Of a stretch of 64,000 nt of DNA, positions 1 through 56,360 are shown one piece after another. The stretch is from Brevibacillus sp. GTDB lineage: Bacteria > Bacillota > Bacilli > Brevibacillales > Brevibacillaceae. Position numbers and translations under genes: made by a program. Each line of letters starts with the position of its first letter. Within the stretch, counting starts at the first letter, position 1. The DNA lies in contig JACDOF010000001.1 in NCBI GenBank assembly GCA_017656235.1, forward strand, positions 434,001 to 498,000, written 5' to 3'. The notes below the pieces were generated by a model. It was not told the DNA's origin and made no database searches. It saw only the letters and a list, made by a program, of their open reading frames with translations.

Positions 1-205
1 TGCCTGACCAGCAAGGATGTACAACTGCCCGCTTCGAAAACGATCCGTGGGGGCGAGGGCAAACCGGCTCAGCATTTCAGTGTAGCACCGAGTTGCCCTC
101 GCTTTTCCCCACGTCCACGTTTCTTACGCTCGGTTGGTCAGGCAAAGGCGCTCGTCACGGACTATTGGCACCCTTCCCTTGGAAACAGGTTTTTCTGCAA
201 TCCGG
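1..205 (+). repeat. Dispersed fold-back repeat, copy 1 (cut by window start)
   Basis: Non-coding structured repeat. Nested inverted repeats are visible: TGCCTGACCA (1-10) with TGGTCAGGCA (135-144), CGTGGGG (46-52) with CCCCACG (107-113), and GCGAGGGCAA (53-62) with TTGCCCTCGC (93-102). The left arm (1-32) matches the reverse complement of about 40178-40208. The right part (113-203) matches 34588-34680 with roughly ten differences by eye. A terminator follows immediately. Confidence 0.8.
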
Positions 206-231
206 AACCGGGCATAGCCCGGTTTTTTTTT
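206..231 (+). terminator. Intrinsic terminator upstream of ymxH
   Basis: Perfect hairpin AACCGGGC-ata-GCCCGGTT followed by a run of T. It presumably ends the transcript of a gene lying left of the window. Confidence 0.9.
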
Positions 232-39965: not shown

Positions 39966-40290
39966 GAGAAATCTCCGCTGCAGATTGCAGACAAAGTGTC
40001 GTGAATACGAGTGGGGCGTTTTTCGCGCTCACGTAAGGTGGCCAACCAGCGAAGATGCAGTTCAAGATCGCTCCACGACGATCCGCAGGGGCAGCGGCAA
40101 AACGATGTCCCGCAGCGACGTGAAGCTGTTGCCGCTGCGAACGACTTTGCCAACCTTCCAAGCGGAGCAAGACCGCAGCGGGCAGTTGTGCATCTTTGCT
40201 GGTCAGGCAACAGCGCGAGCAGGACGATTGGTCCCTTCGGGACACTTTTTCTCCAGTTTGAAGCGGAGAAATCTCCGCTGCTGCCCATTG
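39966..40290 (-). repeat. Dispersed fold-back repeat, longest copy, in the spoVS-korA gap
   Basis: About 325 bases, inverted relative to copies at 1, 50775 and 55376. Arms 40041-40059 and 40189-40208 pair almost completely. An inner perfect stem GCAGCGGCAA (40091-40100) pairs with TTGCCGCTGC (40129-40138). A near-palindrome GCGGAGAAATCTCCGC (40264-40279) recurs in part at 39965-39978. Long overlapping frames occur on both strands, but none is conserved between copies (13-base length difference in an aligned segment). Within the 840-base gap 39875-40713, the rest holds only promoters. Confidence 0.8.
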
Positions 40291-54907: not shown

Positions 54908-55339
54908 ATGAGTCAAACATTGATTACGCACAAGGAGATTCTTGAAAAAGCACGGGAGCTTGCCGGCATGATTGCCCGTACGAAGGAAGTGGATTTCTAC
55001 AAACGAGCCGAGCAGCAGATCAAGCACAACGAACGGGTTCAGGAGATGATCGAGGAACTGAAGAAAAAACAGAAGCAAATGGTCATGTTTGAATCCATGA
55101 ACAGGATGGATCTGGCCAAAAAAGTGGAACAGGAGTATAACCAGCTGCATGAGGAATTGGACAGTATTCCCATTGTGGCTGAGTTTAAACAGTCCCAAGT
55201 GGACGTGAACGATCTGTTGCAAATGGTTACCAATGTGATAGCCAATACCGTGTCCGAGCGGATCATTCTTGACACCGGCGGAAATCCGTTGACGGGTGAA
55301 ACGGGTGGCGGCCCCAAACGAACAGGCGGTTGTCGTTAA
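54908..55339 (+). CDS. ricA: YlbF/YmcA family protein RicA
   Basis: 143 residues, helical, YlbF/YmcA family (EILEKARELAGMIARTKEVDFYKRAEQQIKHNERVQ). In B. subtilis RicA (YmcA) with RicF and RicT forms an Fe-S complex that steers RNase Y processing and speeds Spo0A phosphorylation. One C-terminal cysteine is present (TGGCR). Starts 4 bases after miaB, same order as in Bacillus (miaB-ricA-cotE). Confidence 0.9.
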   Translation: MSQTLITHKEILEKARELAGMIARTKEVDFYKRAEQQIKHNERVQEMIEELKKKQKQMVMFESMNRMDLAKKVEQEYNQLHEELDSIPIVAEFKQSQVDVNDLLQMVTNVIANTVSERIILDTGGNPLTGETGGGPKRTGGCR

Positions 55340-55375
55340 ACAACCACTTCAGCGTAAAACAAAAGTGTTTTGATT

Positions 55376-55640
55376 AGGAGAGCGGCCATTTTCCTTTCCT
55401 CACTCCGTTGCCAACCACAAATGAAGCTGGACTGTCCTCTTCGCCATCCTGAAGCGGGCAGGCGCAAAAAGCAGCATTGCTGCGTCGTTTTTCAAAGTTG
55501 CGCCGGCACGGCCCCGCTTCGGGATGGCTCCGATAGGTTGGTTGGCAAAGTCGTTCGTGCGGAAAATGGCCGCTCTCCTCTTACACTACACATCGGCAGC
55601 GGGACGTCGTTTTGACGCTGCCTCTGCGGTTCGTCGGGGG
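55376..55640 (+). repeat. Dispersed fold-back repeat with 204-base nested hairpin
   Basis: Nested stems: AGGAGAGCGGCCATTTTCC (55376-55394) with 55561-55579 (19 bases perfect); TTGCCAACCA (55408-55417) with 55539-55548; a 16-base stem 55443-55458 with 55513-55528 (one G-T pair); GGCGCAA (55461-55467) with 55498-55504; tip GCAGC-att-GCTGC. Segments GGTTGGCAAAGTCGTTCG and AGCGGGACGTCGTTTTG match the 40-kb and 50-kb copies. The 460-base ricA-cotE gap holds this element and the cotE promoter. Confidence 0.85.
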
Positions 55641-55741
55641 CCGGCGTTTCCATTCCCCTGATGCTCTGCCGGCACTGACAGCGTACAAAGGGAGAAGGCG
55701 AGGGTCGTCATGTTTTTCCCGAACAGTACCTGCATTTGTTG

Positions 55742-55802: not shown

Positions 55803-56360
55803 ATGTCGGGTACAGACAAAGATCTGCAGTGCCGGGAACTCATCGCAAAAGCCGTATGTGGCAAAGGACATAAATTCTCCCAGACGACGCATACCATATT
55901 GCCATCACATACACCTTCGACCATCCTTGGATGCTGGGTCGCCAATAACAGTTTTCTAGCCGAAAAAGTAGGTGAGGCGATTGAAATTACTGGTACGTAC
56001 GACATCAACTTGTGGTACTCATTTGCTGACAACACGCAAACCGAAGTAAAGAAGGAAACCGTAACTTATTCCGAACTGGTACCCCTGTCCTTCTTTGACA
56101 GCAACTGCCGCGGCGACCTGGAGATCATCGCCCATGCCGTCGAGCAGCCCAAGTGCGTCAAAGCAGAAATTTCCGGGGGCGGAACAGTGACGGTTCGCGT
56201 TGAAAAAGAGTTTGCGGTTGAGGTGATCGGCGAAACCAAGGTATGCGTCGTCGTTTGTGCGGGTGGGTGCGATGACAAGGATTTTGACGGCGGCTTTGAC
56301 GAGACAAGCGACGAGTTTGACGATTTTGAGTCGTCCGATCTATTTGACGAGTTGGACTGA
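55803..56360 (+). CDS. cotE: Outer spore coat morphogenetic protein CotE
   Basis: 185 residues from ATG 55803 (GGAGGAGGGAACG). CotE assembles the outer spore coat in the mother cell. Family N-terminus (CRELIAKAVCGKGHKFSQTTHTI), TILGCWVANN and DINLWYSFADNTQTEV are present, and the strongly acidic Asp/Glu/Phe-rich C-terminus (~155-185) is typical. The frame upstream to 55782 has no ribosome site. Confidence 0.95.
   Translation: MSGTDKDLQCRELIAKAVCGKGHKFSQTTHTILPSHTPSTILGCWVANNSFLAEKVGEAIEITGTYDINLWYSFADNTQTEVKKETVTYSELVPLSFFDSNCRGDLEIIAHAVEQPKCVKAEISGGGTVTVRVEKEFAVEVIGETKVCVVVCAGGCDDKDFDGGFDETSDEFDDFESSDLFDELD

Follow-up and report, generated by a model that had tools for sequence, protein, structure and literature searches.

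The ricA–cotE locus

The window, by which we mean the whole 64,000-nucleotide stretch of DNA analysed here, contains a long fold-back sequence between ricA (54908..55339, + strand; YlbF/YmcA family, PF06133; stop at 55339) and cotE (55803..56360, + strand; PF10628; ATG at 55803). The initial annotation described a nested fold-back at 55376-55579, and this is borne out, with stems of 19, 10, 16 and 7 bp together with internal loops and small side hairpins. The outer stem, said to be perfect over 19 bases, is indeed an inverted repeat without mismatch, its 5′ arm (55376..55394, + strand) pairing with its 3′ arm (55561..55579, + strand). The 5′ arm of the 10-bp stem, GTTGCCAACC (55408..55417, + strand), pairs with 55539-55548. 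The 16-bp stem (5′ arm 55443..55458, + strand, paired with 55513-55528) contains the single G-T pair claimed for it and shows strong covariation across genera. When folded, as had been proposed, the sequence gave z scores of about -8 to -9 on both strands and with DNA parameters. Predicted RNA energies were -107.9 kcal/mol on the + strand (z -8.3) and -108.4 on the - strand (z -8.5), and were matched by none of 200 shuffles on either strand; folded as single-stranded DNA the z score was -8.8, again equalled by none of 200 shuffles. We refer to this 205-nt foldback module (55376..55579, + strand) as module A; the search model R2 used below matches it at 55377-55579 with 147.9 bits.

Remains of a longer element lie on either side of module A. 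To the left, a degenerate transposon end (CAGCGTAAAACAAAAG, 55350..55365, + strand; consensus CAGYCTGTAGACAAAG) can be read against the ends of other copies. To the right, 55586..55620 (- strand) is a fragment of an inverted partner, module B, 88-97% identical to pieces that follow module A in longer copies. Module A and this fragment (query 257-291) are all that the window copy retains of the two modules, and no right transposon end is recognisable there. The window copy is decayed and, with its partner module and right end lost and its left end degenerate, is probably immobile. A short hairpin, GGTTGT-cgttaa-ACAACC (55328..55345, + strand), spans the ricA stop codon. From its sequence, and from the stem-loop present at the equivalent place in genome G001, this hairpin is likely to have been the insertion target of the window copy; a right-hand duplicate of it is not recognisable at this copy. 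Between the fold-back and cotE, the sequence CAGCGTACAAAGGG (55679-55692) resembles a shortened left end in direct orientation, and is possibly a trace of another element.

The distance between ricA and cotE is 463 bp in the window. At 28 further loci where it could be measured, it ranges over 99-184 bp; two of these loci belong to same-genus genomes (184 and 149 bp), and the remaining 26 fall at 99-168 bp. The comparison covered 35 genomes, five of them without the locus; L128 was not measurable and L115 has an odd ORF call. The empty-site comparison proposed in the initial annotation therefore found the gap empty in all 28 measured loci. The 205-nt module would not fit into the gaps of relatives, so the lineage of the window has gained the hairpin by insertion. 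It had been placed just upstream of the cotE promoter; the insert does lie upstream of promoter-proximal sequence, and the cotE-proximal sequence common to relatives is intact beside it, but no functional link to the promoter was found.

A family of copies in the genome and genus

Similar elements were to be expected elsewhere in the genome if the fold-back is mobile, and they are present. A search of the window's own genome (G000) with 55330-55620 gave at least 50 matches, at least 40 of them aligning over at least 129 bases, the window copy included; these counts are a floor, 40 of 108 candidates having been scored. The element is also present in two genomes of the same genus, where the matched parts are 72-77% identical. 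In 56 other relatives, DNA similarity consisted of one 32-base match only. When 38 loci of the own genome were compared all against all, 18 contained a repeated stretch of at least 430 bp, some of them by holding two copies. The first alignment was restricted to matches covering more than 140 query bases, with copies of identical core sequence excluded. The elements of the genus are approximately 260-570 bp long and contain no transposase gene. The module at L183 gave no blastn match to plasmids and phages, and an Arthrobacter stretch recovered in an exact DNA pattern search over named genomes is probably a chance match.

A second, diverged copy (1-228) is cut by the edge of the window. Its module occupies 1..177 (+ strand, 58.1 bits) and is followed by a right transposon end, GTTTTTCTGCAATCCG (189..204, + strand), and an intrinsic terminator (205..228, + strand), both identified by eye. 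The whole copy is found at L135 441-729, with the module at 472-678 (78.1 bits); its left half, and a diverged duplicate of the terminator to the left of the left end, lie outside the window. A degraded and rearranged copy at 40000..40262 combines pieces of the two modules with a right end (matches 40092-40137 and 40139-40216). At L026 (G000:C5:127780) the outer arms appear by eye to be inverted relative to the core, like a flipped interior between inverted arms.

Element ends and a related insertion sequence

In copies from a sister species, 16-bp terminal repeats (CAGYCTGTAGACAAAG) lie just outside the hairpin, with intrinsic terminators flanking them. The fold-back had been interpreted as a foldback transposable element with long terminal inverted repeats (TIRs). 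The dispersed copies and the empty site agree with a mobile element of foldback type. Its transposon ends, however, are not the 19-bp arms but the 16-bp repeats beyond them, and so it is not a foldback element with long TIRs. Short TIRs, as in a MITE, were found in 32 of 66 copies, in which both ends match the consensus at 11 or more of 16 positions.

The left end CAGCCTGTAGACAAAG is common to the element copies of G001, the genome of a sister species, and to an IS in the same genome (16/16). The protein of this IS, P0001, has DDE_Tnp_1_6 and DUF772 domains and scores 491.8 bits against the NCBIfam model transpos_IS1182 (NF033551), for which the cut-off is 270. G001 contains nine copies of P0001-type IS at 98-100% and five at approximately 71%, and a broken remnant is present in G002. 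No P0001-like IS was found in the own genome, G000, which gave three weak IS1182 matches only. The IS1182-family IS of G001 thus resembles the element in having the same 16-bp ends, and also in the duplication of whole terminator stem-loops described below. It differs in possessing a transposase and in lacking the 205-nt module, which gave no match in the two IS loci L129 and L154. The first DDE_Tnp_1_6 match in G000, at L067 (G000:C12:16460), was rejected as the mobiliser because its ends are different by eye. The L067 gene has an in-frame stop and is followed by sequence that, by eye, resembles the end of a group II intron.

Duplication of whole terminator stem-loops

In six of nine loci of the first subfamily of the G001 IS, identical whole stem-loops of 20-31 bp abut both ends of the IS. 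At L133 and L134 the flanks are unmatched. On its right, L134 is flanked by sequence matching that to the left of L131, a locus in which no right end was found; this suggests recombination between copies. By eye, the same duplication of a whole stem-loop is present at L156, a locus of the second subfamily.

The hairpin element was analysed in the same respect using 66 of 72 copies (six duplicate or second-register rows were removed); in 34 of the 66 the ends fell short of the 11/16 threshold. Flanks were compared with 992 mismatched flank pairs as controls. In 20 of the other 32 copies the direct repeat, mostly abutting the ends, lies above the 99th control percentile; 16 of the 32 were above every control, and 10 repeats, of 21-27 bp, were exact. 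In a genome of another genus (G027), each of the five copies scored above all controls, and on either side of the module the repeats lie 22-26 nt away from it. In five other groups, only 2 of 44 units carried a long duplication above controls (1/6 and 1/14), and terminator duplication is therefore established for two genera only. The target-site duplication that the initial annotation proposed to look for thus exists, as a whole terminator stem-loop, in well-preserved copies, but none is recognisable at the window copy.

These results bear on the view that the hairpin is of non-mobile origin and serves as a bidirectional or unusually large terminator, or as a host element regulating cotE. Its 3′ intergenic position would suit such a role, and the outer arms by themselves could stop transcription. 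Yet homologous copies are dispersed in the genome, the same gap is empty in relatives, and intact copies have TIRs and target duplications, with the real terminators outside the hairpin. The copy family and the empty site refute a non-mobile origin, to which we attach almost no credence.

Spread and organisation of the module

Model R1 gave matches in 33 of 39 genomes of the family, covering 7 of 7 genera, and homology of the matched loci was confirmed on reading; some matches were antisense because the module is palindromic. At E 1e-5, model R2 found the module in 62 of 398 genomes of the class and 26 of 145 genera, 32 of the 62 genomes lying within the family. Counts in 25 carrier genomes outside the family ranged from at least 1 to at least 76 at E 1e-6 (the highest being 76, 72 and 66); no more than 98 candidates were scored. 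The sole match in f25 (G121) may be contamination, as it is near the family copies by eye and comes from a fragmented genome with 5% contamination. Neither the window nor 16 loci gave a match in Rfam 15 at the curated threshold, and at E up to 5 each of two copies gave a single chance match. This structured repeat family, which fills many intergenic gaps of the class, is apparently not in Rfam 15 and looks undescribed.

With R2, the downstream part of long copies in the own genome proved to be a second, diverged module on the opposite strand in 10 of 10 cases (59-74 bits). At 27 loci, selected for having two matches, the modules are convergent, with spacers of 47-185, units of 456-591 bp and identities of 0.69-0.82. 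At L236 and L238 the inverted-pair unit is repeated in tandem, approximately every 507-518 bp.

Dispersed palindromes in inverted pairs, with a motif at the hairpin foot, are the organisation of REP/BIME sequences. The modules are likewise intergenic dispersed hairpins in inverted pairs, and by eye a GTRGTGG-like motif is conserved at the foot, as might be expected if they were REP/BIME-like and were moved by a Y1 (RAYT-type) transposase that acts on hairpins in single-stranded form. However, REPs are far smaller than these modules of approximately 205 nt, and the TIRs and long target duplications of the own-genus elements resemble those of DDE IS. Furthermore, a Y1_Tnp (PF01797) match is absent in 18 carriers among the 62 genomes, including G000, G001 and G002. 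For the own genus, where the transposase is absent, mobilisation of this type is largely refuted, and we consider it very improbable.

The module is also carried by an autonomous IS. In G024 (7 copies), G008 (2) and G004 (2) it precedes an IS1182-type transposase gene by approximately 115-120 bp, in the same orientation, and this 2-kb IS is 86-98% identical among the three. Partly repeated terminator sequence on either side of the module suggests that the module may derive from a MITE that had inserted into the IS. By eye, the 2-kb IS (L331-L336 and L341; ends GAGAGCCCTGCAAAA) is found in terminator loops with loop duplications of approximately 6 bp, a mode unlike that of the G001 IS.

Conservation of the fold: DNA structure or RNA

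In an alignment of 58 of the 72 located copies of the genus (A1), 96.2% of cells are paired, and 97.5% in the 10-bp stem (helix 2). Among copies of one species, pairing is barely above that of shuffles (95.1 vs 94.4% in G000, 96.6 vs 96.5% in G001, 98.3 vs 98.3% in G002), which indicates that individual copies drift and that the signal lies between lineages. The family alignment A3 (37 rows) was obtained from A2 (38 rows) by reversing three palindromic antisense matches and leaving out L179. In A3, 90.0% of cells are paired compared with 73.8% after shuffling, both partners vary in 38 of 58 pairs, and the covariation value is 0.452 compared with 0.162 for shuffled and 0.081-0.135 for slid alignments, the shuffles ignoring kinship in both comparisons. 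When 77 distinct class-level copies were aligned blind to structure, 81.2% of pairs were standard, compared with approximately 62% shuffled and 41-46% slid; as the copies were picked by the model, this test is not fully independent.

The initial annotation gave a large structured RNA as an alternative to a transposable element. The structure is strongly conserved, but most tests gave no mark of an RNA acting at its own locus. A functional structured non-coding RNA carried on mobile elements, perhaps read outward from the centre of each pair (the minus strand of each module), would be in keeping with the strong covariation across genera, with the pairing across families in the structure-blind alignment and with the conservation of unpaired positions. 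At class level the minus strand folds more stably than the plus strand (z -6.28 vs -5.17, in 63 of 77 copies), and by energy it is also the more stable in the own genus, but the strand difference is absent in A3 (p 0.9). Per-genome consensus pairs include 21 G-U and 11 A-C, but in well-paired columns the two kinds of mismatch occur in similar numbers (G-U to A-C, 31:27 and 37:30); the class-level copies gave 218:176. By contrast, 23 tRNA genes from the same loci gave 40:0, a control that is biased because ARAGORN requires pairing. The near-shuffled pairing within species and the lack of any Rfam 15 match also argue against an RNA. Where genes are in tandem, module orientation is the same as theirs in 20 cases and opposite in 17 in the own genus, and 29 and 17 respectively for class-level copies, whose neighbouring genes were called by a crude method.

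Taken together, the within-species pairing near that of shuffles, the similar numbers of G-U and A-C mismatches and the balanced tandem orientation make the evidence lean towards a DNA structure used in transposition and kept between masters. An RNA role retains some weight because the class-level strand asymmetry is not predicted by a purely symmetric DNA hairpin; we nevertheless consider it unlikely.

Discussion

As both the G001 IS and the well-preserved copies are flanked by whole stem-loop duplications, the most fitting reading is of a MITE that is mobilised in trans and inserts into terminators. We think it probable that the hairpin is the folded core of such a MITE, living in terminators, and that the module is kept as a DNA foldback that aids movement. 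In the mechanism we propose, an IS1182-type DDE transposase acting in trans would, on each strand, join the 3′ end of the element to the 5′ foot of a terminator stem-loop. Gap repair would then copy the entire stem-loop, so that a terminator stands on each side of the element. Retention of the 205-nt module as a DNA foldback in replicating lineages would be due to its helping the element to move.

The distribution of IS1182 transposases goes against this explanation. IS1182 matches are present in 48 of the 62 genomes but absent from 11 carriers, one of which (G087) has 76 module matches, and they are present in most of 12 non-carriers tested outside the family; IS1182 presence therefore does not track the element. 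Judged from sequence matches, neither IS1182 nor Y1 tracks it, and no single transposase accounts for the whole spread. A more tentative reading, which we put at somewhat less than an even chance, is that the module is a class-wide conserved unit, found as convergent pairs within different terminal sequences, and so a transferable 'structure cassette' in the form of folded DNA or outward-read RNA. If so, non-autonomous elements would exploit transposases that act on stem-loops, and at least one autonomous IS1182-type IS, with the module upstream of its transposase gene in three species, would do likewise.

Targeting of stem-loops by an IS1182-family IS has been described for IS1272, which according to Wan et al. 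2017 (PMC5678879) replaces inverted-repeat stem-loops, targeting them by structure. The same authors credit Siguier et al. with the observation that some members of the family have palindromic targets. IS1272 is like the present elements in targeting stem-loops, but it replaces the stem-loop without duplication, whereas the G001 IS and the MITE-like element keep a stem-loop on both sides. In the scheme of Wan et al., duplication of a whole stem-loop corresponds to a hypothetical pathway b and duplication of the loop only to pathway c, the latter matching the 2-kb IS of G024, G008 and G004. Bacterial MITEs are described in a review (PMC10969869) as short, non-coding sequences with terminal inverted repeats, target duplications and stable folds. 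The element shares these properties, and differs from the MITEs of that review in its much longer conserved complex fold, inverted-pair layout, GC-richness and terminator-specific duplication. A full-text literature search found no description of this element.

The loci described here provide clear sequence cases of a transposon duplicating an entire terminator stem-loop, a route that for the IS1182 family is put forward in PMC5678879 only as a model. The covariation of the repeat family is strong enough for direct tests of function at the DNA or RNA level. The final position of the element, with a terminator on either side, suggests a way in which mobile DNA can insert while termination is preserved.
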